From: a virus
DNA length: 21,369 bases
Direction: 5' to 3' (one strand)
IMG/VR virus record: IMGVR_UViG_3300032050_000944
Coordinates: 1-21,369 of that record
Positions 2,431-20,065 of this stretch are shown here, one piece after another. Under the pieces are notes generated by a model. The model did no database searches. It had not been told where the DNA came from and was given only the letters and a program-made list of their open reading frames with translations. The position numbers and the translations under genes are program-made. Positions within the stretch are counted from its first letter, which is position 1. Each line of letters opens with the position of its first letter.

Positions 2431-2969
2431 TAGGAGCCTCCGAAGGTAAGATTAAAAATAGAAGGTAGTTGAAATGTATTTGATGGTTGTCCAGTTCCTC
2501 CTGCACCCAAATTAGCTGCGACTTGCCCACCATATACATCTCTAAGCCCAGCTATTGCGCCAGCACCGCCAATTCCCATAGAATTTAGTTTCTGAGCTTG
2601 GGTTTGTGGTTGCGCTCCACCAGCAACTGCTTGTGATCCTGCCGCGCCTTGAGCTTGTTGTGCGCGAGTCAATGCCTCCTTATCGGCTGCTTGCTGCTGC
2701 ATTCCAAACTGGCCCAATTGCTGTCTAGCAAGAGCCTCACCCTGTTGAGCGGCAGCAAATCCAGCCTCTTTCTGCTGATTAATTATTTCTCGGCGACGAG
2801 CAGCTTCAGCGGCACGAGCGGCTTGAGCGGCTTGAGCGGCTTGTTGCTGTTGAAGTGCTAGTAGGGCATCTGAAGAGCTACTTCGTGAAGAGCCGTTTCC
2901 TGAAGAGGTGGAGCCAACGCTCATCCTCTTTTTACCCTTATCAGTTAGCCAAGAAAATAAATCAGCCAT
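2430..2969 (-). CDS. Ala/Gln-rich virion-associated protein, paralogue of next gene upstream
   Basis: The 179-residue product begins with a short ordered stretch (MADLFSWLTDKGKKRM), then a Ser/Gly linker (residues 17-34). A long Ala/Gln/Arg helix follows (36-110, AAQAAQAARAAEAARRRE-like). A Gly/Ala region follows, and then a conserved-looking tail, SNTFQLPSIFNLTFGGS. The tail matches the C-terminus of the adjacent 166-residue protein (SNLFNLPKTSGITFGGQ), and both share the Gln/Ala helix. The two therefore look like a tandem duplication that has diverged. The ATG lies two bases after the upstream stop, behind a weak GGTGG. A structural or ejection role is inferred from position; no catalytic motif is visible. 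Confidence 0.78.
   Translation of the reverse strand: MADLFSWLTDKGKKRMSVGSTSSGNGSSRSSSSDALLALQQQQAAQAAQAARAAEAARRREIINQQKEAGFAAAQQGEALARQQLGQFGMQQQAADKEALTRAQQAQGAAGSQAVAGGAQPQTQAQKLNSMGIGGAGAIAGLRDVYGGQVAANLGAGGTGQPSNTFQLPSIFNLTFGGS
2437..2441 (-). promoter_or_regulatory. Strong Shine-Dalgarno for the 525-aa gene
   Basis: The minus strand reads GGAGG followed by six bases and ATG (2428-2430). It is one of only two textbook SD sites I found before a gene in this window, so it supports this start and suggests stronger initiation here than at neighbouring genes. Confidence 0.7.
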
Positions 2970-2971
2970 GA

Positions 2972-3472
2972 TTATTGTCCACCAAATGTTATACCACTGG
3001 TTTTTGGAAGATTAAAGAGATTAGATGATTTACCAGTTGATCCAGCACCAGCATTCATGCTATCCATCCCATAAAATGGCAGAGGAGCGGTTGATGGAAT
3101 AGCTCCAGCCCCAGCAAGGTTTGCCGATTGCTCTTGTTGCGCTTTTGCAATATCAAATCCTTCGCCAACAGCAGAAGTCCCAGCGGCAGATGTGGCCTGC
3201 TGTTGAGCCTGCTGCGCGGCAATATCTTTTGCTTGCTGCATTGAGCCAGCTTGAGAAAGAGTTTGTTGAGCTGCCATTTGTCCTTCACGGGCAGATGCAA
3301 GTGCAGATTGTTTTTGAGCTTGAATGATTGCTTGCTGTTGGGCTTGTCTAGCAGCGGCAGCTTGTGCCGCCTGTTGCTGCTGCATCATAGCAAGATAGCC
3401 CATCATCGGGTCTGGGGAAGATTGTCCTCCTCCGCTTTTGCCTCCACCTCCGCTTCTTCGTGATCCACCCAT
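2972..3472 (-). CDS. Gln/Ala-rich virion-associated protein, paralogue of the 179-aa gene
   Basis: The 166-residue product has a Gly/Ser/Arg-rich start (residues 1-20, with GGSRRSGGGG), then about 75 residues of Gln/Ala helix including AQQQA and QQQAIIQAQ stretches. Its C-terminus (SNLFNLPKTSGITFGGQ) is shared with the following gene. It follows the YkgJ-like gene after a 13-bp gap and has only an A/T leader before its ATG. The low-complexity helix suggests a flexible or assembly-linked virion component, possibly one that leaves with the DNA. That role is inference, since similarity beyond composition can only be seen to the neighbouring paralogue. Confidence 0.75.
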   Translation of the reverse strand: MGGSRRSGGGGKSGGGQSSPDPMMGYLAMMQQQQAAQAAAARQAQQQAIIQAQKQSALASAREGQMAAQQTLSQAGSMQQAKDIAAQQAQQQATSAAGTSAVGEGFDIAKAQQEQSANLAGAGAIPSTAPLPFYGMDSMNAGAGSTGKSSNLFNLPKTSGITFGGQ

Positions 3473-3485
3473 AATATTAAATAAG

Positions 3486-3782
3486 TTAAGTTTTAATGTT
3501 TAGTTTTTTTCTTGCTTCAAGGCATAAATCGCCATTCGGCTTAAAATGCCTACAAGAATCTGGTCTGTCAAAGTAAATTGAGCATGATACGCAATTTCCC
3601 ACAGTTCCTTGTAATGCCACGCATCTGTTATTTTCAGTTTTCATCAAAGGATAGTCTCCTCGTTGCATTTCTTTCGGTATCTTTTCTGCATCCGATCTGT
3701 CACGCTTAAGAATCGGCCAAGACCATTTGTAAGTACAGCAAGCACCGCAAGAAATACAGTCTTCACTTGTTACTTCTTCCAT
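3486..3782 (-). CDS. YkgJ-like cysteine-cluster protein (putative metal or Fe-S binding)
   Basis: The 98-residue product carries the CxxCxxCC signature of the YkgJ/UPF0153 family: Cys9, Cys12, Cys15 and Cys16 (CISCGACC). Further cysteines lie at 54, 64, 67 (CVSC), 77 and 87. Family members are thought to bind zinc or an iron-sulfur cluster, and their reaction is not established. The start ATG overlaps the end of the PAPS-reductase-like gene by 13 bp in another frame. The two are therefore probably translated together and may work together, with the cysteine protein as a possible redox or metal partner. This pairing is inference. The gene sits among structural genes, an unusual place for a small metal protein, and looks like an inserted accessory gene. 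Confidence 0.85.
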   Translation of the reverse strand: MEEVTSEDCISCGACCTYKWSWPILKRDRSDAEKIPKEMQRGDYPLMKTENNRCVALQGTVGNCVSCSIYFDRPDSCRHFKPNGDLCLEARKKLNIKT

Positions 3783-4606
3783 TCCACAGGACGAAATCCA
3801 AGGTCATCAATAACGATGTCTTCGTATGGAGCAATTTCGCTTATATTCGTGATAGTGGCGTTTAGTTTAGGGCAATGCACATGGCGACCTAAATGGCGAT
3901 TCACGCAATTAAAACAAGCTGGATAGAAGTCGGCATTTAATGACTTATCTGGATTGTTTTTCCATTGTCCATTTTCCTTTATGTAGCGAGTAGGGTCAGG
4001 CTCAACACCGCTTTCTTCAAGATACTGGAATATCTCATCATCAGTCCAATCACGCATTGGATATAGGGATACTGGCGCACCATCAACAATTCGGATGTCT
4101 TGAGCAAGTGGCACATGACCCTTAATCAAGTCTGTGTCTTCGTATTTTGTTCCGATAAATACTGCCCCCCACGGCCAATTAAATGTGCCAGTAGGTCGTT
4201 GCAAGAAGTCATCAACCCCACACAAGAATTTTTCATCTGGCTTTGGCTTCTCTGTGCCTAAAGATAAGACAACACAATTCTTGCCCCATTGAAAATAATG
4301 GAGCATATCGAAGCGAACCTCGCCAGTATTGACATCTGGGCCATCTGCCAATGACACCTTCATCGGAGGATACTCATATACCTCCAAGTTCCATTCTTTG
4401 ATTAAGCGATCAGAATAGGCATATCGCTCACGGAACTTTGGCTGACGATACTGAACAACAGGAATATCAATCTCTGCCTCGTATCGGATCAAATGAAGCA
4501 ATGCAGTAGAGTCTTTTCCTCCACTCCATAATACTACTGATCTAGGCCATCTTTTGTTCCACTCTTTTATTCTATTTATTGTTTTATTTATTAGGTGATG
4601 TCTCAT
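3770..4606 (-). CDS. PAPS-reductase-like PP-loop enzyme
   Basis: The 278-residue product has the PP-loop SGGKDS at residues 28-33, which binds the pyrophosphate of ATP or of an adenylylated substrate. It also has the family's later motif LYPMRDWTDDEIFQYL (181-196). It belongs to the adenine nucleotide alpha-hydrolase superfamily, closest by eye to phosphoadenosine phosphosulfate (PAPS) reductases. The C-terminal ECGLH catalytic motif of classical PAPS reductases is absent. In its place is a Cys/His cluster with Cys231, Cys234 and Cys245 plus nearby His residues, which could bind metal. True sulfate reduction is therefore unlikely, and a sulfur or nucleotide modification role (RNA or DNA thiolation, for example) is possible. 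Its ATG overlaps the upstream TAA by one base, and its end overlaps the YkgJ-like gene by 13 bp. Confidence 0.87.
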   Translation of the reverse strand: MRHHLINKTINRIKEWNKRWPRSVVLWSGGKDSTALLHLIRYEAEIDIPVVQYRQPKFRERYAYSDRLIKEWNLEVYEYPPMKVSLADGPDVNTGEVRFDMLHYFQWGKNCVVLSLGTEKPKPDEKFLCGVDDFLQRPTGTFNWPWGAVFIGTKYEDTDLIKGHVPLAQDIRIVDGAPVSLYPMRDWTDDEIFQYLEESGVEPDPTRYIKENGQWKNNPDKSLNADFYPACFNCVNRHLGRHVHCPKLNATITNISEIAPYEDIVIDDLGFRPVEWKK

Positions 4607-5391
4607 TAAATAATAATTGCCGCCCCTAACGCCGCTCCAGCCACTGCGCCTCCAGCACCAATCATCTGACCAGTCATTGCATTCTTAGAAGCTGCATTTT
4701 GCACAGCATTGTTATACATTGCCTGCTCGTAGTTTTGCTTGTTCTGTTGAGAAATATTATTCGCTTGGGAGAGTTCACCAAGATTCTGATTGATGAAATC
4801 AGAAGTAGATTGTTGCAATCTTTGACCACTTGAAATCACATTTTGTTGATACTGCTGCATTGCCTGCAAGTTAGCTGCTTTAGCCGCCATTTCAGCTTGG
4901 ATAGCAGTTGCTGGATCAAGTCCTCCAACTGGGGCAGGAGTTTGAGCGAGGTATCCTTGTTGCAGAGCAAGAGCGCGAAGTCTTGCCTGCCTGCCAGCTT
5001 CAGTCCCAGTGTCATACATTGCAGCGCGGCCAATGGTTCCACCAAGTCCAGTTGTATACCCAGAAGTCAATCCTTGCTTCTTTGCAAGCTCATTCATGCT
5101 ACGCTGAATTGCGGAAATATCAGAAAGCTCTGCAACCTTGCCTCCCATCTGACTACGCATTCTTGCAGCTTCTGGATCAGTTAGCCCCTCAAGCTCACGA
5201 GAGCGAGTGATATTTTCAAGTCCAAATTCGGCAGCTTCTTTAGATGTTCTCCCAGCATCGAATGTTTGAGTCTTTGGAGGCATTTCAGCGTATGCCTTTA
5301 GAAGGTCTGCTTGGCCCTGCAAATACTGACTACCTATTGCTTGTTTACCAGCAATCAGCGCAAACATAGATGTGTCGTCAGGTCTTTTCAT
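4606..5391 (-). CDS. Virion-associated protein, paralogue of the 295-aa gene
   Basis: The 261-residue product is rich in Ala, Gln, Gly and Met and predicted largely helical. It shares several blocks in the same order with the upstream 295-residue protein. These include a K-Y/A-E-M motif near residues 33-37, IGRAAMYD (about 119-126), YLAQTPAPVGGL (148-159 region), and a following segment with an AxNxxAMxxY pattern. The last 25 residues are a hydrophobic Gly/Ala tail ending in AIII that could insert in a membrane. Such tails fit proteins ejected into the host envelope. No catalytic motif is visible. It begins one base after the upstream stop, and its stop overlaps the ATG of the PAPS-reductase-like gene. 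Confidence 0.8.
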   Translation of the reverse strand: MKRPDDTSMFALIAGKQAIGSQYLQGQADLLKAYAEMPPKTQTFDAGRTSKEAAEFGLENITRSRELEGLTDPEAARMRSQMGGKVAELSDISAIQRSMNELAKKQGLTSGYTTGLGGTIGRAAMYDTGTEAGRQARLRALALQQGYLAQTPAPVGGLDPATAIQAEMAAKAANLQAMQQYQQNVISSGQRLQQSTSDFINQNLGELSQANNISQQNKQNYEQAMYNNAVQNAASKNAMTGQMIGAGGAVAGAALGAAIII

Positions 5392-6933: not shown

Positions 6934-9066
6934 TTAACAAGGATTCTGATATAGATATTGTTGCGCTGCCTGATTTGCTGCAACTTGGGCCAATTCCCCA
7001 GCTTGATTCTTGGCATCAATTTGAGAAATGCTTGAAAGATAACTTGCCGATGCAGTAGCTGAAATTGATTTTGCTGGATTCAATGTGCAGGAAAGGGTGA
7101 CAGTTCTAAATTCTTTTGCCCACCAAGATTTTTGACTTGTATCAGCTTGCTCAAATGGAGTGGGAAGCAAATCAATTTCAAGACTTGTTCCATCTTGAGA
7201 TGTAACACAAGATTTAGTTTCTGGAGCTTGCGGAACACCTGTGCTGCGCTCGCTCCAAGGATCAATGAAGATGCGAAGTGCCTCTACACCGAACTCCCCG
7301 CACCATTCGATCAATACGGAAAATGCTTTATCAATATCGCTTGTAAGAACGGACTCGCAAGTAATGGCTGATTGCCTGCGCTGAGAGTTTTCAGTAACTA
7401 GCCTGCGGTATTGCGTGTTCAGAAATCCTAATTTTGCAATCTCATCAGCGTAGTCAGTATTGACCCATTGATAATCTTCCGTCACAGCAAGCAATCTGGT
7501 CTCAAGAATATTTTGATATGATCCTTTTGAGCCACGATACGAAACTTTGACATCCACAGTTCCGCCAATTTCGCAAGCCTCAATTTCTGCATATTGAAAT
7601 TGCTTGTAGTCTAATCCATCACCCAAAAGTCCAGTCTCCATCTGGGAATAAATACGATTGACCTTTTCTGTAATGTTACCATCAACATCAATATCAAAAT
7701 ATGTATCAGCGCGATTCTGAGTGAATGCCTCCCAGAGATGGTTGTATGAACCATCATTTGTTGCGGAATAGTCAACTGAGAAATGGAAACAACGAGGAGT
7801 TCCGTCAATCACACCAGAAATCCATTCTACGGGCCTTGTTCCAGTCCATACACCAGACCATGCTGGAGTCCTTTGAGAAGACCATTCTGCCGCCGCTGCA
7901 TAATCAAGAACCATTGTAGCAGAGTTGCACGGCTCCAAGTATGGGACAGAATAGAGGAGATAGTTCTCAAAGTTCATCGCGCAAATCTTACTGGTATCTC
8001 CAGCCATGTATGATTTGACTCTTGCCATTTCAATATCTCGATAAACAGACTGAGATGTTATGTATGCAGATGCAGCGACATCCGCAGAAACCAATCCGCC
8101 TTGAGAATACCACCAAAGCTGACCAGCTTGAAACGCAATAGATTTTCCAGAAACGCATCCAATCGTAGGATACAAGGTAGTCTGGAAGTTTGCCGTGCTT
8201 GCCCATTGCGTTCGATCATAGATTCCACTGGCAAGTGAGTATGTTGCACGATCCGTAAAAACAACGAGTTTCGTGTCATTGTTCTGGCCGATATAGTTCG
8301 TCATTCCAGTAACAACGCGAGCGAATGCAAAGTCTCCACGGCCAGTCCCAGTCAATCTTTCAGTAAAAGATGTGGGGTCGCCCAAGTCAGATGCAAGAAC
8401 AATATTTTTAGAGGCAACCCACAACCGATTCCCACTATATGCCATCCAGTATCCAATAGGAATAGATGCAGTCTGGATACCAGTCTGATTTGATCCATCC
8501 CAATATGCGGGAGCAGAAATCCCATCTTGAATCACAACGATACGATGAGATGGAGTAACAGTTACATCTCCACCAGTTGAAACCTGTGCAGTTTGTGTTG
8601 CTGATGTAAAAACAAATTGGTCAACAGATGGATCGAGCTTGATGTTTTTTAGACGAAAATCCTCCCAGTTTTTTGGCTGAATAATTGGGAATGGAGAATA
8701 GTAAACATTACCATTAACCGCGAACAATACATACGGCAATTCATCAGCCAAAGATGTTGTTCCATCTGGATTGTAAATTTGCGCTGGAATGGTTTTCGTA
8801 ACTCCATTTTGAATGATTGTGTCTGATGCGCTGGCTTGCTTGTTTGCAGAAAATAAAATTCCACCTTGGAAGTTGCCCGGAGGCAAGGACAGGCGCATTG
8901 AATATCCCGGCCTAGTCTGAATAATGCCACCACGAACAGAACAGTTTACTGCCCATTTGATTTGATTATCTGGCAATGCCCACGGGTTGCGAACGGAATT
9001 AACCCCTAGAAGCCACCCAGAGGAAGTCTTGACTTCTCTGCCCGATGTAATCTGTGCGCTTTTCAT
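6934..9066 (-). CDS. Tail nozzle-like protein (T7 gp12 / P22 gp10-like role)
   Basis: The 710-residue, beta-rich product has near its start (residues 21-55) a pattern often seen in podovirus tail tube or nozzle proteins. It reads NPWALPDNQIKWAVNC, then GGIIQTRPGY, equivalent to the usual Asn...Gly-Gly...Arg-Pro-Gly element. Alternating aromatic and polar stretches follow with no enzyme motif, consistent with a propeller-like ring. It is immediately downstream of the adaptor-like gene, with a one-base stop/start overlap, as gene 12 follows gene 11 in T7-type phages. The C-terminal 60 residues are Ala/Gln/Ser-rich and helical (LNPAKSISATASASYLSSIS...AAQQYL). The nozzle call rests on one motif, length and order. 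Confidence 0.75.
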   Translation of the reverse strand: MKSAQITSGREVKTSSGWLLGVNSVRNPWALPDNQIKWAVNCSVRGGIIQTRPGYSMRLSLPPGNFQGGILFSANKQASASDTIIQNGVTKTIPAQIYNPDGTTSLADELPYVLFAVNGNVYYSPFPIIQPKNWEDFRLKNIKLDPSVDQFVFTSATQTAQVSTGGDVTVTPSHRIVVIQDGISAPAYWDGSNQTGIQTASIPIGYWMAYSGNRLWVASKNIVLASDLGDPTSFTERLTGTGRGDFAFARVVTGMTNYIGQNNDTKLVVFTDRATYSLASGIYDRTQWASTANFQTTLYPTIGCVSGKSIAFQAGQLWWYSQGGLVSADVAASAYITSQSVYRDIEMARVKSYMAGDTSKICAMNFENYLLYSVPYLEPCNSATMVLDYAAAAEWSSQRTPAWSGVWTGTRPVEWISGVIDGTPRCFHFSVDYSATNDGSYNHLWEAFTQNRADTYFDIDVDGNITEKVNRIYSQMETGLLGDGLDYKQFQYAEIEACEIGGTVDVKVSYRGSKGSYQNILETRLLAVTEDYQWVNTDYADEIAKLGFLNTQYRRLVTENSQRRQSAITCESVLTSDIDKAFSVLIEWCGEFGVEALRIFIDPWSERSTGVPQAPETKSCVTSQDGTSLEIDLLPTPFEQADTSQKSWWAKEFRTVTLSCTLNPAKSISATASASYLSSISQIDAKNQAGELAQVAANQAAQQYLYQNPC

Positions 9067-12000
9067 TAGAACATTACTGGATCAGTCGTATCGCCATATG
9101 TGATCGCATTTATTTGCGGGACTGACATTGCGTGACCATCAATGCTCTCTTGCTGATTCTTGAGATATGCAAAGGCAATCTGCCAGTAACGAGCGGACTG
9201 ATCCGCAAAGTCTTTGTCTTCCAAATCGCAGGCGTGAACAGCAGTGATGATTGCTCGCTCTTGCTCCAGCGGAATGAAATCGTAGATGCTGGTGATACTT
9301 GGAGTCTGAATACGATAAGAAATCCTAGCCCATGCACAAGGCTTACCAATGCGAATCCTGCGGTATTGAGGATTAACTTCAGATGGATGATATTGACCGA
9401 TCAAAGTCATGTCATTGCTACGGCCATAATCGTAAGCGTAGAGTGAAACATAACCTTCAGTAATTGGCTTATCGACTTGCGATACAGACTTCACAAATGT
9501 TGGCAATGTTACAGAGTCAACAAAGAATGTTGATTCCACAGTTTCTCCAGTTGTCGTGTATATCTTGCGGCCAGTAGTAGAAGAAGTATTTCTTGCATGA
9601 GCAAGCGTATCGTAAAGCTCAAACGAATTGTTATCTAGCCTGCGAGCGTAGTATGTCGTTCCAGCAGTCAATCCAGTTGGCAACACATCGCCTTCTTTGG
9701 CGCGAGGAACAACGGCATCACCAGTATTAAAGTGGGCTTGGTCAGCATCAATACTCGTAGATGGAGAGACATTGAATGTGCGAATAATGTCAACGCTCAA
9801 CTGACCATTTCCCGGAGTGGTTAGAACTTGCAGGGTTACTCCAGAATATACCTTGAATTTATTTCCTTCAAGTTTGATCGTATAATCAGTTCCAGAAATC
9901 AAAGGAGATGGCAGAACTCCAGTAGTAGAGAACCTTACAATTTCACCTTCATTTAGATACTCGATTTCACTAGGAACAATCACATTTCCAAATGGCAATG
10001 ACTGGAATGATTTTCTCAGTGCGTAATAAGATTGACCAGAGCCAAATGATGTAACAGTAATAAGACCAGTTGTTCCGCCAGCATTAGCATTAACTAGACT
10101 ATTGTAAATCTTGCCAGTCGTATTGTTAATCTTATTTAAATAAAATGGTGTTACTCCATTATCAATAGATGGATTAGTGTTAGGAAGTAGATAATCCGTT
10201 CCAAAATACAATTCTTGTCCAGTAGCAAGATTAGTAAACTCGCCCTCCCAGTTGTTATTAAATGTTACGCTGAATGCACGAGATAACGATACATACAATG
10301 TTCCGGTTCCAGAAGAAGTGATGTTAATATCACTAAAGTCAGCATCCTTAACAGTAAAGTTTCCAGTAGAAGTATTTAGCGGAGATTCTGCGCGATATGC
10401 AGTTCCAGACACAAGCGGAGCAGGAAGAGTTCCAGTTGATGTAAATGCAACAAAAACACCAGTAGATGGAGATATTGTAACTGTTGGAGTTCCGGTATAT
10501 CCAAATCCAGATGTAACTACATTTAATTGTGTTACATCGCCAGAATAAGATGTGATAGTGCCTGTTGCTGGAGTTGTTGTTCCAGACGCAATTGCATACT
10601 GGAATGTGGTTCCAGTTGGATCAGGGACACTAGATGTAATAGTTCCAGTAGCTGGAGTTGTTAGTGTGGATGCTACACTGTAAGTAAACTCATTTGGATT
10701 AGAATAAACAGTAACTACGAATGCTCCATTATATCCACTAGGAGTTGCTCCACTAATAGTAACAACATCTCCAGTAGAATAATCATGTGGAGTTGGAGTA
10801 ACGGCAGTAGCAATTGTTCCAGACCTAGAAATAGTTACTCCACTTATTGTTGTTAATGGAACAGATGTTATTACTTTTGTTCCATTATACGCGTTTGGTA
10901 TTGCTCCAGAAATTGTTACTGACTGACCGACACTATAACCATGAGCGGATGATGTTGTGGCAGTTGCAGTAAAACCAGACCTTGTAAGTAAAGAAACATT
11001 TAGAACATTACTATTTATTGTTGCCGTTGCAGTTGCTCCACTCCCATTTCCTCCAGTTATTTTAACTTGTGGAGGTTCAGTATAATTCAATCCGCCTGAA
11101 ATCTTTCTAAATCCAGAAATAAATGAAGTTTGTATTTTTGCAGATGCTTTTGCCGCACCGCTACTAAAGGTAATCGTTGGTGGACTAGAGTATCCCAGCC
11201 CAGCACTTGTAATAACTACTTGGTTTACTGCGCCAGACACAATAATTGCATATCCAGTGGCAGTTGATGTTTCTATATTGCTTCCCGGTGGCGGCGAAGG
11301 AGGATCAGAAAAAGTAACATCTGGGGCTGCTCCATATCCAGAACCTCCAGCAGTAACTTGAACAGAAACAACAGAGCCAACAGTAATAGCTTGGAATTGC
11401 GCTCCAGAACCAGATGGGGCAGCTATATTGAGTCCAGTTGCCGTTATTTGAGATTCCGATCCTATAGTAACAGACGCTGGTATGAGCTTAACAATGGAAT
11501 TTGTCCCGCTTCCAGAATCTTTAATTGTAATTGGATTGATTAGATTTGTAGGAGATGAAGCTAATGCATCTGCTTTATTTTCGTGCAGTGAAACAATAAA
11601 TGGATCAATAACATTTACGAAATAGTTTTGATTCGCAATAAGTGGCTTTGGAAGCGTGCCAGATGCAGTAAATGCTTGAACTTGATCTCCATCATTGTAG
11701 TAGTGGCGAACAGAGAATGTCAGAGTTGTCTGAGGATCAATTTGTTTACGAATATCAGCATACAGAGTTCCCGGCGCAGGAGGAACTGGCCCAGTCGTTC
11801 CAGTGGTGTAAACTGGATTGATATTCTTTTTTGCATCATTCTCACTTTCAAATATCGTCAAATGCGTAGCATCTTCTGCATTCGCATAATATGTCTGATT
11901 TGAGTTAAGTGGTGATGGAAGAGACTGTCCAGTTGGAAATGTGAGCTGGTTAGCTGTATCAAGTGTAAATGCAGGAGCAGATGAAAGCTGAAGCGCAGTG

Positions 12001-12818
12001 ACAACTTCTGCTTCTCGCGTGTCACGGAATGTCAAGTTGCCAGCACCGACAATGCTCTGCAAATCTATTGGATATTGCAATGCTTGGGCATTCAGAGGAT
12101 CATTGAAAAGCTGGACTGTATATGCGTCGATTACTCCAATGTAGTATGTCTGGCCATTCTCCAATGCTACAGGAATCGTTCCAGTTGTCGCAGTAACGCT
12201 CATTCCTTGACCAGATGATAGTCCGTGAGCAGTTGTGCTTGTAAAGAGATTGATTGGCGTTATAGCAACACTGCGGGTCTTTACAGTAGCATCATCTGGA
12301 GTAATCGTTCCATACGCAAAATCACTTTGCGAGTGAATTGGAACAAGCAAGCCATCAACGCCAGTTCCATTCGCAAGTTGCGAGCGAAGTGTTCGATTGT
12401 CTTGATCGTTGCCAAGAACACGAAGCGTCTTGCCAACATCATTCTCCAACTCAGCAACAGCGATAAGCTGTGAAGGCTGAATGATGTCCATGAGTGTAGC
12501 AACATATCCGCGATCATCCCATGCCCATTCAACGGAATTGAACATTCCGCCTTTGTTTACATGGTATTGGAATAGGCGATTGCGGAAGTATGTCGGAGAG
12601 CCGTCAATGTTGACCGCAAGAGGAACATCAATATTGCGAGGAAGCGTGATAGAACAACGATCCCATCCTGTGCATACATCAACATCAGCAACAGAGTGAG
12701 TCCAGTGACCAGACTCCATCAATGTCGCTACTGCCTGCTGAATTTTACGAAAGATTTTACTTTCGTCAGTCGTTCCTAGAATTTCAGCACATTCCTCAAA
12801 GATTTGCGAGACAAACAT
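9066..12818 (-). CDS. Head-tail adaptor-like protein with giant beta-repeat insertion, 1250 aa
   Basis: Residues 1-165 look like the start of a podovirus adaptor (tail tubular A-like): a helical pair (FEECAEILGTTDESKIFRKI...LMESGHW) followed by a strand-rich part. Residues about 1115-1250 resemble its end, with a helical segment (EQERAIITAVHACDLEDKDF... to LKNQQES). Known adaptors of this type are roughly 200-250 residues. Here about 930 residues of beta-repeat modules sit between the two halves. Six copies of a TGxLPxPLxxGTxYY-like module lie near 189-243, 289-333, 377-420, 787-827, 958-1000 and 1028-1078. Four GGxGYxxxPxVTF-like motifs lie at about 485-783, and two HGYSxGxxVTISGAxPxxYNG units at 615-727. 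The insertion probably projects from the neck as a decoration or adhesion domain. The adaptor assignment is inference from ends, order and the following nozzle gene. Confidence 0.78.
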   Translation of the reverse strand: MFVSQIFEECAEILGTTDESKIFRKIQQAVATLMESGHWTHSVADVDVCTGWDRCSITLPRNIDVPLAVNIDGSPTYFRNRLFQYHVNKGGMFNSVEWAWDDRGYVATLMDIIQPSQLIAVAELENDVGKTLRVLGNDQDNRTLRSQLANGTGVDGLLVPIHSQSDFAYGTITPDDATVKTRSVAITPINLFTSTTAHGLSSGQGMSVTATTGTIPVALENGQTYYIGVIDAYTVQLFNDPLNAQALQYPIDLQSIVGAGNLTFRDTREAEVVTALQLSSAPAFTLDTANQLTFPTGQSLPSPLNSNQTYYANAEDATHLTIFESENDAKKNINPVYTTGTTGPVPPAPGTLYADIRKQIDPQTTLTFSVRHYYNDGDQVQAFTASGTLPKPLIANQNYFVNVIDPFIVSLHENKADALASSPTNLINPITIKDSGSGTNSIVKLIPASVTIGSESQITATGLNIAAPSGSGAQFQAITVGSVVSVQVTAGGSGYGAAPDVTFSDPPSPPPGSNIETSTATGYAIIVSGAVNQVVITSAGLGYSSPPTITFSSGAAKASAKIQTSFISGFRKISGGLNYTEPPQVKITGGNGSGATATATINSNVLNVSLLTRSGFTATATTSSAHGYSVGQSVTISGAIPNAYNGTKVITSVPLTTISGVTISRSGTIATAVTPTPHDYSTGDVVTISGATPSGYNGAFVVTVYSNPNEFTYSVASTLTTPATGTITSSVPDPTGTTFQYAIASGTTTPATGTITSYSGDVTQLNVVTSGFGYTGTPTVTISPSTGVFVAFTSTGTLPAPLVSGTAYRAESPLNTSTGNFTVKDADFSDINITSSGTGTLYVSLSRAFSVTFNNNWEGEFTNLATGQELYFGTDYLLPNTNPSIDNGVTPFYLNKINNTTGKIYNSLVNANAGGTTGLITVTSFGSGQSYYALRKSFQSLPFGNVIVPSEIEYLNEGEIVRFSTTGVLPSPLISGTDYTIKLEGNKFKVYSGVTLQVLTTPGNGQLSVDIIRTFNVSPSTSIDADQAHFNTGDAVVPRAKEGDVLPTGLTAGTTYYARRLDNNSFELYDTLAHARNTSSTTGRKIYTTTGETVESTFFVDSVTLPTFVKSVSQVDKPITEGYVSLYAYDYGRSNDMTLIGQYHPSEVNPQYRRIRIGKPCAWARISYRIQTPSITSIYDFIPLEQERAIITAVHACDLEDKDFADQSARYWQIAFAYLKNQQESIDGHAMSVPQINAITYGDTTDPVMF
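9519..12323 (-). repeat. Beta-repeat insertion within the adaptor-like protein
   Basis: Protein-level repeats at about residues 166-1100. Three families are interspersed: a 40-55-residue TG-LP-PL-xxGTxYY unit ending in an acidic A-containing strand (six clear copies, plus a degenerate one near 862-912); a roughly 48-residue GGSGYxxxPxVTF unit (cores at 485-505, 533-553, 571-590, 766-783); and an HGYSxGQSVTISG-type unit with TTPATGTITS ends (615-655, 672-727, and a partial one at 739-758). The copies are diverged, so this is not a recent DNA tandem array. Confidence 0.75.
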
Positions 12819-12827
12819 GGCGCGACA

Positions 12828-13154
12828 TTATCGCATCGAACCTTCTGCCGCAAGTGATTTAAGAAACTCTTCGTCTTCAGCGGTAGCAACAGCCTCTGGA
12901 GCCATTTCTTCGGCAACAGCAACGGCTTCCCCACCTTTTTGAGCGTCAACTTCAGCTTTGAGTGTTTCAAGACCAGACTGTAGCTGGCTGACAAGGGTGT
13001 AGATAGAATCAAAAGCATCAGATGGCATTTGAACCATAACCTTACCACCAGCAGGAGCAGCCATGTCAGGAGTTGGTGCGGCCATTTCCCCCGGCATCGC
13101 TTCTGGTGTTGGAGTTGGAGCCTCGGTTGGAGGCATGGTTTTATCTTGTGCCAT
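12828..13154 (-). CDS. Small Pro/Ala/Glu-rich virion-linked protein, 108 aa
   Basis: Residues 5-37 are Pro/Thr/Ala/Met-rich (TEAPTPTPEAMPGEMAAPTP) and probably unstructured. Residues about 38-72 are a likely amphipathic helix (VQMPSDAFDSIYTLVSQLQ, then Gly, Leu, Glu, Thr, Leu). The C-terminal third is Ala/Glu-rich and acidic. The profile fits a short scaffold, capsid accessory or assembly protein, but I recognise no family. It starts with ATG four bases after the stop of the acidic gene and ends nine bases before the adaptor-like gene. Confidence 0.75.
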   Translation of the reverse strand: MAQDKTMPPTEAPTPTPEAMPGEMAAPTPDMAAPAGGKVMVQMPSDAFDSIYTLVSQLQSGLETLKAEVDAQKGGEAVAVAEEMAPEAVATAEDEEFLKSLAAEGSMR

Positions 13155-13561: not shown

Positions 13562-14392
13562 TTATTTAGCTTCCAATTCAGCTACTTTAGCAGATAGTTC
13601 TTTAACTGCATTAATAAGAATATAAGTCAAAGCATGAGAATTGAAATTATATAATTCTGTTTTTTCAGAATCATTTTCATTTAATTTTGCTTTAAATGTA
13701 GAAATGCCTTCTGGAACAATATCTTTTATTTCTTGAGCAATTACACCTACATTGTTTTTAATTTTTTCAAATCCTGCATTTCCATTATAATCATAAATGA
13801 CTGGTTTTATAGAATTAATAGCATCAAGTCCTTTTGTAAAAGGCTTGATATTTTCTTTAACTCTTTCATCAGATGCAATTGTCCATGTGTTTGTTGATGG
13901 TTTTGCAGCGGAGTCAGTTGCAAGTTGCAATAGATATGATGGGTTAATATTGCCAATTGCAACATTTCCTCCAGCTTTATTTAAAAGCAATGGAGTTCCT
14001 GCGCCAGAATCGTCAATTGCTGAAACAATTCCGTGTTGTCCTGCCGATGGTTCCCAATATGCTCCTAAAAATAATCTTTGAAAATTATTATCAACTAATA
14101 TTTTACCCGTATAACCAGATGCTGAACCCTCTGTCATTACAATATGCAATTTTGCTTCTGGAGAAGTTGTTCCAATTCCAACATTTCCATCATTATCAAT
14201 TGCAAATGGACTATTATCTGGATTTGTTGAATCTTCAATTTTGAATGCGTCACCAGTTCCTGTTTGCGTGATTGTTAGTGCCGTTGATGTAGAACTTGTA
14301 GAAATTGTTTTAATTCCTGTGATCGTCTGTGTTGTATCTGTAGTTACAATATTAGGTGTAATTACATTTTGTGTTGCTTTAGTTAGTGGCAT
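13562..14392 (-). CDS. Tail fibre/spike with S74 intramolecular chaperone domain
   Basis: The 276-residue product begins with a short anchor-like segment (MPLTKATQNV...), then beta-repeat material rich in Thr/Ser/Gly. It contains the common GNVGIGTTSPEAKLHI fibre motif at about 69-84. From about residue 172 it has the S74 chaperone domain: IASDERVKENI (172-182), VGVIAQEIKDIVP (215-227) and YNFNSHALTYILINAVKELS (248-267), ending in a coiled-coil-like tail. Such domains help trimers fold and are then cleaved off by a Ser/Lys dyad. Ser174 and Lys179 have the five-residue spacing of the known dyad, so self-cleavage is plausible. It follows the collagen-like fibre after a 46-bp gap, and the host ligand is unknown. 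Confidence 0.9.
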   Translation of the reverse strand: MPLTKATQNVITPNIVTTDTTQTITGIKTISTSSTSTALTITQTGTGDAFKIEDSTNPDNSPFAIDNDGNVGIGTTSPEAKLHIVMTEGSASGYTGKILVDNNFQRLFLGAYWEPSAGQHGIVSAIDDSGAGTPLLLNKAGGNVAIGNINPSYLLQLATDSAAKPSTNTWTIASDERVKENIKPFTKGLDAINSIKPVIYDYNGNAGFEKIKNNVGVIAQEIKDIVPEGISTFKAKLNENDSEKTELYNFNSHALTYILINAVKELSAKVAELEAK

Positions 14393-14438
14393 AATTTTAG
14401 TTTTTCTATTTTAGTTGTTTGTTAGTTGTTTTTGATTG
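14393..14438 (-). other. 46-bp intergenic spacer between the two fibre genes
   Basis: A/T-rich spacer between the collagen fibre stop and the S74 fibre ATG. On the plus strand it contains two adjacent copies of ttagttgttt (14411-14420 and 14422-14431). I see no hairpin plus U-run terminator, no clear promoter and no SD. The start is preceded by AAAATT. Confidence 0.5.
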
Positions 14439-16184
14439 TTAAGCTACTGATAGTGATACTATTGTTATTTCCGATCCAGATGGAATTGGTGTCGAGAAAG
14501 TTAATGTTCTTGGGATTACATTGTCAATAGTGTAATTTGTTGATTTCTGATAAACTCCGTCAACGCAAACAAGATATGCTGTAGCAAGTATAGACAATCC
14601 ACCTGTAATTGCAAATACTGTTTGAATGCCATCTCCAGTATATGCCCATGCATTTCCAAAATTAGAAGGAGGAAGAACGCCTGTTGCCCCAGTAGCTCCA
14701 GTCGCACCAAAACCAGTTGCACCTTGAGGCCCAATTAATCCAGTGGCTCCATCTGGGCCAATAACTCCAGTTGCACCAGTTGTTCCAGCACCTGTTGCAC
14801 CAACTGGCCCTGTGCTTCCCGTGGCTCCCGTTGGGCCGTCAACTCCAGTTGCACCAGTTGTTCCAGCACCTGTTGCACCAACTGGCCCTGTGCTTCCAGT
14901 AGCTCCCGTTGGGCCTGTAGCACCTAGTCCTCCATCACCAGCAATGCCGATTTCCCAATCAGCAAAATTTCCACTGCCTTGGACTGTATCAACTTGAATT
15001 TTTACCCAAGAATTATTTACCTCAATAACATTTCCTTCAACCCAGTCATAAGGATATGCCGAGTTAGCTACTGCGCGAAGTCGAGTTCCGTATGTCCATC
15101 CAATAGGGGCATCTGGAGTATAGTAAAATTGCTTATATCCAGTATCAATGTCATGCGATGTAAAACTTTGACGAACAATGACCTGTGAAATTCCAGACGC
15201 ACCAGTTGAACCTTTAATTCCAGTTGCTCCAGCAATTCCATTCAATGATATAATTACAATTTGCGATCCTGATGGAATAGGTGACGACATTGTTAAGATT
15301 GCCCCGCTGATTGAGTAATTAACAGGGTCTTGAGTAACGCCATCAATGTTGACTGAATAAGCTAATGGGTTGTTTGTCGTATTCCCTGAAATATTAAATG
15401 TGGTATTATTGCTACCCGTATAAGCCCAACGAACACCACCAAACGGGCCTGCTGAACCTGCAACTCCTGTTGCGCCTTGAATTCCAGTTGCGCCAGTTGA
15501 TCCAGCACCAGTCGCGCCAGTTGCGCCCCTAATACCAGTTGCGCCAATAACTCCTGTTGCGCCAGTTGACCCAAGTCCAGTTGCTCCTTGAAGACCAGTT
15601 GATCCCGTTGCTCCAGATGCTCCAATATTTCCTTGAATTCCTGTTGCTCCAGTGCTTCCAACAGCGCCAGTGGCTCCAGTCGCACCAGCTCGGCTCGAAA
15701 GCTCAACAATAGTCAAAATTGAGCCTGCTGGGAGGAATGTATCAAGTGTTAAAACTCGCGGCAATGAAGTAGAAATAGTGTAACTAATGGGGTCTTGGAC
15801 AACACCATCAATATATGCCAAATATGCATTTCGATCTGGCTGATAAGCTCCAGTCAGAGTGAATGCAGATTGACCAGAACCAGTAAATCCCCAGCGTAAG
15901 AATGTTCCATATCCATCAAGTGAATTAGAAAACAAACGAAGCAAGTAGCAAAGCAATCCCTCGCCCTCTTCACGAGGAATGTCATCCACCTCTGTTGTGT
16001 TATTTGGATCACAAGGAATATCCCAAACTACGCGACCATTAACCACAGTCTTGTTAATCGTGCCATATAGAGCATAAACAAGATTAGAAATCAAAGAAGG
16101 AACGGACTCCGGTGAAACCTGTGGATATGGAGTGTCGGGGCAGCAAGTGCTGCTGTAAGTGGAATTATTGCAATTGCAGGACAT
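14439..16184 (-). CDS. Collagen-like tail fibre with three repeated beta domains, 581 aa
   Basis: Residues 1-97 are an N-terminal anchor-like part with four early cysteines (3, 5, 14, 15) and an acidic stretch. A beta domain follows three times (about 98-164, 252-316 and 512-581), each opening with W-G/A-F/Y-T-G and containing an IDGV/VDGV strand and a PxGSxxTIV-type end. Between copies are Gly-X-Y triplets rich in GAT (166-250, 317-332 and 415-504), as in collagen-like phage fibres. Residues 337-414 form a further domain, with a [13 protein letters not shown]-type core seen in many fibres. The triplets should form a trimeric stalk. No enzyme motif is present. The fibre probably acts in host binding together with the S74 fibre; its start has only an A/T leader. 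Confidence 0.9.
14673..14942 (-). repeat. C-terminal collagen-like (GAT-rich) segment
   Basis: Residues about 415-504 of the collagen fibre consist of Gly-X-Y triplets broken by two-residue register shifts (GAG-TT-GAT, for example). It contains the 78-bp duplication listed separately. Confidence 0.85.
14763..14918 (-). repeat. 78-bp near-perfect tandem duplication in the collagen fibre
   Basis: Two adjacent copies of 78 bp (14763-14840 and 14841-14918) differ at only a few positions. Each encodes one 26-residue unit ([20 protein letters not shown] then GATGVD or GATGVI). The high identity compared with the diverged rest of the fibre points to a recent duplication or copy-number variation. 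78 is a multiple of three, so changes in copy number keep frame. Confidence 0.85.
15435..15689 (-). repeat. N-terminal collagen-like (GAT-rich) segment
   Basis: Residues about 166-250 of the fibre are Gly-X-Y triplets rich in GAT, GST and GIQ. Phase breaks occur at GLG-ST-GAT and GAG-ST-GAT, matching the interruption type in the second collagen segment. Confidence 0.85.
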
Positions 16185-16229
16185 AATTTTCGTTGATTTA
16201 ATTGTTTGAAATTACTTTGTCAAAACATA
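16185..16229 (-). promoter_or_regulatory. Candidate sigma-70-type promoter before the collagen fibre
   Basis: In the 45-bp gap, the minus strand has an exact TTGACA (16218-16223), a 16-base spacer and TTAAAT (16196-16201), which matches four of six bases of TATAAT. Transcription would begin only about five bases before the ATG, leaving almost no leader. That makes the call weak unless the mRNA is leaderless. If real, it would be an internal promoter for the fibre genes. Confidence 0.3.
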
Positions 16230-16502
16230 TCAAGAAATTTGTTCCATTTCTTCGTAACTTTCCGCCAGAAGCGTCCCCATATCTTCGACTGCTTCTTCCT
16301 CAAGGTCGGGAAACCTCGCATGAAGCAATTCATGGCATAGAACATTTAACATTGACCTTTCGCATTTTGGATTGATGAAAATAGTTCTACTTGAGTAGTC
16401 ACAAATTCCATCATTATCGACTCCGTTTGTTTTTCCTGCGTGACCCAATCGTATCTTCCATGACTTTCCGTTGATTGTCTTTTTGATTATTTTCTTTTTC
16501 AT
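16230..16502 (-). CDS. Small zinc metalloprotease-like protein (HELLH), 90 aa
   Basis: The product has HELLH at residues 57-61, followed by ARFPDLEEEAVE (62-73). His57 and His61 would bind zinc, Glu58 would be catalytic, and a following Glu could be the third ligand, as in gluzincin-like or SprT-like folds. The N-terminal half has the SWKIRLGHAG (14-23) and ICDYSSRTIFINP strands that lead into the active-site helix. The ATG at 16500-16502 is needed to keep the first strand, so I accept an 89-bp overlap with the upstream gene in another frame. The protein is far shorter than most metalloproteases but matches small phage and bacterial versions. The substrate is unknown; virion-protein processing or peptide digestion are possible roles. 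Confidence 0.82.
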   Translation of the reverse strand: MKKKIIKKTINGKSWKIRLGHAGKTNGVDNDGICDYSSRTIFINPKCERSMLNVLCHELLHARFPDLEEEAVEDMGTLLAESYEEMEQIS

Positions 16503-18601: not shown

Positions 18602-20065
18602 TTAATTTAGTTTATTAGGAATTACTGCATTGAATCTTGTTGAGGTAACAACTCCATTTGTATAGATGATATTTGCATAAGCAAAGAGATATTTAGCATT
18701 ATCCGCTACTGGCATTGAGCCAATCCAAGTGCGCCCGTCATTCGTCGTTGTTACGCTAGACCAAACACGGCTAACATTGAATGGCTCCACTTCAGCTTTC
18801 CAGAACTCAACAGAAGAAATTGGAAGCGTTGTATCTGGCTGGACATTGAATTGGCAAGTCCCAGACACCTTGGACAACCACGAACTAGGACGCTTCGGCC
18901 AAGTAATAGCAGAACCAAGAACATACTTGTTAAGCCACAGAAGTTCGTTGCCTACATTTATAGATACATTGTGTCCTTTGTTCGCGTCATGCGAGAAATC
19001 CCAAGGAACTCCAGCGGGTATCTTATCGAAAGTATCGTCCACCCTGTCGTGTCCTCCATGATGATCTGCTGATCCATTGATAAGCAGCATTGGAACTTTG
19101 GCATACTTTGCCATTGCTTCGGAGGTTGGTGCATTCAGATAGATTTTCTCACCAGACAACCAAGCTGGATATGATGTAGCTGGTATTTGATATTTCCAAA
19201 GAAGTTTGTCCCTATAATATGTAGTCCACCCGTTTCCGAAATATGCTACGATAGCTTTCATCCGAGGCTCCATAGCCATATTCCACGCAATCGTCCCTCC
19301 GTAGCTATGCCCACGCATTCCGATTTGATTAACATTGATCTCTGGCTGGGTAACAAGAAACTCAAAAGCCCTACGCATTACTGAATGCCACAGGTATTCA
19401 CTTGTCTGCCGAGGATCGGAAATCTGGCTTCCATCTTGCAATGTCGTATTGATTTGGTATCCGCCCTGCGATGTAAGATGCCTTCCATATGCTAACGCAT
19501 TCGGATAATCCGTGCATGGCGATCCATCATCTTTTTGACCCGCATAATCAAACCCAAATGTAGCCCATCCCGCAGTGTTGTATGATGGAAACTCTTGCGG
19601 TCCTTGCTGCCATCCAGATGCAGTAAATAGACATGGGAATCCTCCTACTGGTGGAGTGCTGGTTGGAACACGATAGATGATGTAGATATTAAATGTCAGT
19701 CCAGCAAATGTAATGTCTATGTAAATTTGCCGCCTGCGAACCCCTCCAGCAGTAGTGTCAGAAATTATTGTCGGGTTGAATGGCCCGTTGCCAGCAGCGG
19801 TAGGATCGAATTGTGCAAAGGCTCCACTCCATAGCGATCCAGCGTTTGCAATAAGATTGGTATTGTTTGTCTTAATCCAAGCTCCGTCTTTGCGGTAGGC
19901 ATACGAGCCATAGACTGGAGTTGTGTTTGGAACAGTCATTCCATTCCCATCTGGGCAATAAATAAATTCTCCATTGCTCGCAGAAACAGGAAGTCGATCA
20001 GTTGCGTATTGTGCAATATCTGATGTTACCGGGGAAAGAGAAGATGTTCCGAATTTAATTGGCAT
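18602..20065 (-). CDS. Virion-type alpha/beta-hydrolase esterase
   Basis: The 487-residue product has an N-terminal part (1-110) of short strands with no signal peptide, which could anchor it to the tail. An alpha/beta-hydrolase domain follows. The nucleophile elbow is GHSYGG (252-257) with Ser254, the acid is probably Asp334 in NGSADHH, and the His is probably His365 in NKGHN. Between them lie a DYAG element (173-176) and a YLWHSVMRRAFEFL helix (224-237). From about 395 onward is a beta-rich C-terminal domain. The layout resembles acetyl-xylan-esterase or dienelactone-type hydrolases, suggesting removal of acyl groups from host polysaccharide at adsorption. The substrate and the exact acid and His are inference. 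Confidence 0.85.
   Translation of the reverse strand: MPIKFGTSSLSPVTSDIAQYATDRLPVSASNGEFIYCPDGNGMTVPNTTPVYGSYAYRKDGAWIKTNNTNLIANAGSLWSGAFAQFDPTAAGNGPFNPTIISDTTAGGVRRRQIYIDITFAGLTFNIYIIYRVPTSTPPVGGFPCLFTASGWQQGPQEFPSYNTAGWATFGFDYAGQKDDGSPCTDYPNALAYGRHLTSQGGYQINTTLQDGSQISDPRQTSEYLWHSVMRRAFEFLVTQPEINVNQIGMRGHSYGGTIAWNMAMEPRMKAIVAYFGNGWTTYYRDKLLWKYQIPATSYPAWLSGEKIYLNAPTSEAMAKYAKVPMLLINGSADHHGGHDRVDDTFDKIPAGVPWDFSHDANKGHNVSINVGNELLWLNKYVLGSAITWPKRPSSWLSKVSGTCQFNVQPDTTLPISSVEFWKAEVEPFNVSRVWSSVTTTNDGRTWIGSMPVADNAKYLFAYANIIYTNGVVTSTRFNAVIPNKLN

Follow-up and report, generated by a model that had tools for sequence, protein, structure and literature searches.

The adaptor-like gene and its repeat modules

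The DNA analysed here, referred to as the window, is a virus record of 21,369 bases (IMG/VR record IMGVR_UViG_3300032050_000944), and all window coordinates count along this whole stretch. Its minus strand carries an intact open reading frame (ORF; 9066..12818) that starts with ATG and encodes an adaptor-like protein of 1250 amino acids (aa). In an earlier note, made from the sequence alone, the ends of this protein were read as the two halves of a podovirus head-tail adaptor, with a beta-repeat middle of about 930 residues between them (9519-12323, residues ~166-1100). Homologues place the boundaries between conserved and variable sequence close by, at residues 178 and 1100. The protein can thus be divided into a conserved N-terminal end (residues 1-178; 12285..12818), a variable middle of about 920 residues (179-1099; 9522..12284) that is predicted to be all-beta, and a conserved C-terminal end (1100-1250; 9069..9521), all encoded on the minus strand. 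A scan of viral contigs found the same protein with 100% identity in three further contigs (L001-L003) with different sample identifiers. Together with 88 non-identical full-length homologues, these rule out an assembly artefact.

Three classes of motifs occur in the protein, each far more often than in shuffles of the same residues. The six LP-PL/GTxYY modules of the earlier note were recovered as six LP-x-L...YY motifs starting at residues 215, 300, 389, 798, 969, and 1046, a number that was reached in none of 5000 shuffled sequences (mean 0.009). Its four GGxGYxxxP motifs correspond to three GxGYxxxP motifs at residues 492, 540, and 771 and a variant, GGLNYTEPP, at 575, and its two HGYSxG units to HGYSVG (626) and HDYSTG (678), which are related to each other (42% identical over 57 aa, E 3e-11 in blastp). 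A third such motif, HGLSSG at residue 198, is part of the first LP-type module. Because the LP-type motif sits in domains of about 80 residues, some of them with an upstream HGLxxG-like half, the middle was taken to hold about ten modules, and relations among these were detected by blastp (F1-F3, E 4e-8; G-G4, E 1e-5).

In the direction of translation, and all on the minus strand, the array opens with the LP-x-L...YY module F1 (residues 181-266; 12021..12278), for which a likeness to the FCCH domain is discussed below, and continues with F2 (267-347; 11778..12020) and F3 (348-445; 11484..11777). These are followed by the GGxGY region G with three repeats (462-606; 11001..11435), the HGYSVG unit H1 (610-670; 10809..10991), the HDYSTG unit H2 (671-757; 10548..10808), and the fourth GGxGY repeat, G4 (757-784; 10467..10550). 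Four further modules complete the middle, namely F4 (785-852; 10263..10466), the degenerate F5 (853-925; 10044..10262), F6 (930-1012; 9783..10031), and F7 (1013-1096; 9531..9782).

Fixed ends and a changing middle

Viral-contig scans detected 184 relatives with the window protein as query and 304 with its C-terminal end, and up to 80 of the best loci per scan were fetched. The fetched loci include 88 non-identical full-length homologues, each with the two ends in a single ORF; separate genes for the two ends, which the earlier note had considered, were not seen. Homologue lengths range from 1111 to 1921 aa with clusters near 1170, 1250, and 1330 aa, and the steps are often about 80 residues. 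Compared with the window protein across 73 representatives, mean identity is 79% for the N-terminal end, 77% for the C-terminal end, and 45-71% for the modules of the middle, of which F1, F3, F4, and F7 are conserved at 60-71%, with F4 the highest (71%). Region G spans 101-700 residues across the family and F5 60-438, H1 and H2 are mostly gapped in about half of the relatives, and L076 and L079 carry an extra module of ~78 aa within F2, at residue 297.

Modules are gained, lost, and swapped between near-identical ends. Homologues L104 and L110 have nearly identical ends, and one stretch of their middles shares little. Apart from one extra HGY unit of 79 aa in L017, this homologue and the window protein are 94-95% identical; the extra unit is 41-43% identical to the two other HGY units of L017 and could, judged by these identities, be either an old duplicate or an import. 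For the extra 78-aa unit of L076, only 33% identical to the other units of its own protein, an import fits better on the same kind of comparison. Such a gain in L017 relative to a 95%-identical protein, together with the wide range of lengths, would also be expected if the modules were tolerated mobile decoration of little function that is added and removed by recombination via shared repeat sequence. However, every homologue seen retains a middle of at least ~780 residues (range 780-1600), and F1, F3, F4, and F7 are well conserved, which makes this explanation very unlikely.

Predicted structure

An AlphaFold2 model was made for the homologue L022 (1170 aa, alignment of 50 rows), and its helices were mapped onto the window numbering. 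The model reached a mean predicted local distance difference test score (pLDDT) of 78 and a predicted template modelling score (pTM) of 0.46. Two helices are predicted at the N-terminal end (4-14 and 19-35), followed by beta strands, and two at the C-terminal end (window-numbered 1187-1200 and 1205-1226), preceded by beta strands and followed by a tail of about 24 residues. Helices between these pairs are few and short, with about six residues each, and the rest is beta structure. The two predicted helices per end might pack into an up-down four-helix bundle, but parts of the ends have very low pLDDT (below 50 at residues 73-109 and in the C-terminal tail).

The predicted order of helix pair, beta, and helix pair matches the helix bundle around the fibre dock in the T7 and SU10 adaptors. 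T7 gp11 was described as a four-helix up-down bundle that also carries an embracing helix and a fibre dock of five strands; adaptors were reported to share the helix bundle without sequence homology (PMC6702177). From a C133-C171 bond joining helices 3 and 4 of this 196-residue protein, we infer a dock position between helices 2 and 3. In the absence of the portal, T7 gp11 is monomeric. T7 gp11 and P-SCSP1u gp22 (tail tubular protein A) resemble the window protein, as predicted here, in the succession of helix pair, beta domain, helix pair, and C-terminal tail, and their genes also directly precede a large gene in the nozzle position. They differ in length (~196 residues vs 1250), show no detectable sequence similarity, and have a small five-stranded fibre dock where a beta middle of ~920 residues is found here. 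SU10 (Kuravirus) gp11, which holds the tail fibres, was likewise reported to have a fibre dock and a C-terminal embracing loop besides its helix bundle (PMC9509320), whereas the nine family members examined have only about 205-250 residues and no detectable similarity to the window protein. A helix bundle, fibre dock, and C-terminal embracing segment were also reported for the P-SCSP1u adaptor, and the P22 and Sf6 adaptors are without a dock (PMC6702177, PMC9509320, PMC10575957).

For the modules, a Foldseek search of the whole L022 model against PDB returned UBA1 chains (probability up to 1.00, ~100-125 columns, E 0.07-0.4, query region not reported). The matched part is presumably the FCCH domain, which such phage modules resemble. 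An FCCH-like nature of the modules is a lead from the model, and a Pfam search gave no match to an FCCH family. Matches in BFVD were mostly repeat-rich structural proteins of cyanophages and uncultured phages, one of them annotated as P22 gp10-like. Weak matches to neocarzinostatin (E 0.03-0.3) were set aside as a chance likeness of beta repeats.

Repeat families in other phages

In a profile search, the GGxGY repeats matched phrog_701, phrog_460, phrog_19630, and phrog_2885 (E 2e-15 to 3e-9). By sequence, the repeats are known modules of phage structural proteins. The match to phrog_460 is limited to the GGxGY part (profile positions 221-303), and the Hc2 core was not matched.

Cyanomyovirus gp14/Hc2 (L129, L133, L134) is a neck protein with an optional GGxGY insertion of ~80-180 residues. 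Its length varies from 308 aa in P-SSM3 to ~389 in S-RIM2 and 486 in S-MbCM6; GGxGY sequence accounts for the difference, and a limited literature search found no discussion of this insertion. The optional, size-variable insertion in a neck protein is the likeness to the window protein; the differences are that cyanomyoviruses are T4-like contractile phages, that ~80-180 residues stand against 780-1600 here, and that the cores are unrelated by the tests run. Giant baseplate wedge (gp7-like) proteins of cyanomyoviruses also have GGxGY repeats in common with the window protein (tblastn E to 2e-6, and BFVD matches), but they are baseplate proteins of ~6000 residues without the adaptor ends.

Gene neighbourhood

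Directly downstream lies a gene for a protein of 710 aa (6934..9066, minus strand), a candidate for the nozzle or Hc3 protein. Its ATG is overlapped by one base by the stop of the adaptor-like gene (window 9064-9068), a sign of coupled translation. The gene is conserved (700-714 aa, 56-100% identity) and adjoins the adaptor-like gene in the relatives checked. Its product has weak PHROG links to "internal virion protein" and head-closure Hc3, with phrog_511 matched by 22 of 36 members (E to 1.6e-7) and phrog_8040 ("head closure Hc3") by five (E 2.9e-4). In P22, the adaptor gp4 stands directly before gp10/Hc3. In two relatives of ~60 kb (G003 and G004), TerL (phrog_2, E 2e-8) is followed by unassigned genes, among them those for a candidate portal and capsid, and then by fibre-like genes, small genes, the adaptor-like gene, the ~710-aa gene, glycine/glutamine-rich genes, and a giant ejection-like gene of 2974-3425 aa.

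A small gene of 108 aa lies upstream of the adaptor-like gene in the window (12828..13154, minus strand), and a gene of similar size occupies this place in L104 and L087. The fibre-like genes (window 14439-16184; L104:1877-2659 and 2683-5184) have a common N-terminal anchor and different distal parts. Another window gene (18602-20065, minus) codes for 487 aa that include an alpha/beta-hydrolase domain (Peptidase_S9/DLH, E 2e-6); the product may be an esterase associated with the tail. A PAPS reductase/PP-loop-like gene lies amid the structural genes (3770-4606, minus), with a similar gene, judged by eye, at the same place in L112 (14189-15154). At 3486-3782 (minus), a 98-aa protein beginning MEEVTSEDCISCGACCTYKW has a cysteine-rich motif and may bind metal or an iron-sulphur cluster. 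Contig L104, which carries a member of the adaptor-like family, has a YcaO cyclodehydratase gene (Pfam E 2e-60) beside a TfuA-like one (E 2e-28) at 14253-16390; this pair is known from peptide backbone modification. In L117 (5501-15778), the 3425-aa giant in the position of an ejection protein matches ART-PolyVal weakly and contains, near residue 2840, a ParB-N-like domain.

Is the protein a head-tail adaptor?

One conserved unit formed by the two ends, the predicted order of helices, and the position of the gene support the claim of the earlier note that the ends are two halves of a podovirus adaptor, and on its own this identity is probable. A match in sequence or fold to a known adaptor did not emerge. 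The ends (1-178 and 1100-1250) matched nothing in isolated phages, PHROGs, or PDB, and the ends of the L022 model are weak (pLDDT about 28-66 at residues 31-110; pTM 0.46), with no solved adaptor among the 50 PDB matches listed for it. The 710-aa neighbour was modelled by AlphaFold2 with a pLDDT of 50 and gave no PDB match, which leaves the nozzle unconfirmed, and phrog_8040 was not matched in P22 or SU10, so the Hc3 label is unconfirmed as gp10-like. Nothing convincing was returned for the candidate portal (L114:9973-12414) and capsid proteins from PHROGs and PDB. Furthermore, three viral-contig scans gave no relative free of the insert among the best loci (up to 80 each), a search that distant relatives could escape, and neither a lectin domain nor a site for glycan binding was recognised in the adaptor-like protein. 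All these results weigh against an adaptor with an adhesive array. Since no insert-free homologue was found, the middle is called an insertion by comparison with known adaptors only.

A search of genome contigs with a divergent homologue gave no match, and phrog_511 was not matched in T7, P22, or SU10, which provides no tie to a known nozzle. In hhalign, the ends, joined or separate, did not score above column shuffles against ten T7-type adaptors, P22 gp4, and SU10 gp11 with eight relatives. As the control of T7-type against SU10-type adaptors fails too, the test is without power and cannot count against an adaptor. For the same reason, likenesses read by eye (SGHWTHS / SRGWTFN in T7 gp11; HAC...NQ in SU10 gp11) were not used as evidence.

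Alternatively, the protein may be no adaptor at all and instead a large protein of the tail periphery, of a baseplate-like structure, or of an appendage, whose gene stands by chance before a conserved structural gene. This would agree with sequence matches that all fall in the repeats, of types also known from virion proteins, peripheral tail proteins among them, with ends that match nothing known, and with a portal, capsid, and nozzle that lack confirmation by homology. However, conserved ends with predicted helix pairs are atypical of fibres, the genome has separate fibre genes, and among the small genes examined near the 710-aa gene none stood out as an alternative adaptor. Such a protein is therefore considered rather unlikely.

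Proposed function of the modules

An adaptor of an uncultured podovirus-like lineage that also bears a projecting adhesive or docking array is, taken as a joint reading, about evenly balanced between right and wrong. In such an adaptor, the beta domain that serves as fibre dock between the helix pairs of the T7 type would have given way to, or expanded into, an array of about ten modules. The portal-to-nozzle ring on the portal would be built from the ends, and the modules would leave this ring as flexible arms outside the virion. The arms may make weak multivalent contact with host surface polysaccharide, dock tail fibres, or both, and this contact could be retuned through module gain, loss, and swap without change in the ends. 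We infer here that the protein is an adaptor present in twelve copies, that its modules project outward, and that they bind; twelve copies of 1250 residues would amount to about 1.6 MDa by arithmetic estimate. Adhesion is indirectly supported by module turnover and by repeat families that are common to peripheral tail proteins. Fibre docking draws support from the location of the modules, which corresponds to that of the dock in T7, and from the N-terminal anchor common to the fibre genes.

The modules of a neck adaptor might also bind the virion rather than the host, wrapping the neck-capsid junction or locking the tail fibres as a stabilising collar. A precedent is the adaptor of roseophage R4C, which bears an extra beta domain, a small Ig-like attachment domain that touches the capsid (PMC10276861), although this is a single N-terminal domain of ~106 residues in a siphophage. 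T7-type fibre docks hold fibres, and the anchor common to the fibre genes of the lineage would suit such a collar as well. Turnover of modules between near-identical ends is, however, less expected where the partners stay constant, and a collar of this kind seems improbable. An adaptor ring in which each subunit carries a recombining array of about ten beta modules, forming a large variable neck crown that acts as an organ of adhesion or fibre docking and evolves by module gain, loss, and swap, is put forward tentatively.

Significance

By sequence comparison, the finding is more general than the single sequence showed. Known adaptors of short-tailed phages are small rings, whereas the protein in that position here exceeds them in size about five- to eightfold and has a variable middle. 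If the proposal is true, the optional GGxGY neck insertion of cyanomyovirus gp14 would extend to short-tailed phages. A part thought of as plumbing would then serve as an organ of host contact or fibre docking in this uncultured lineage of phages of about 60 kb, and a link between host range and its modular changes could be sought.

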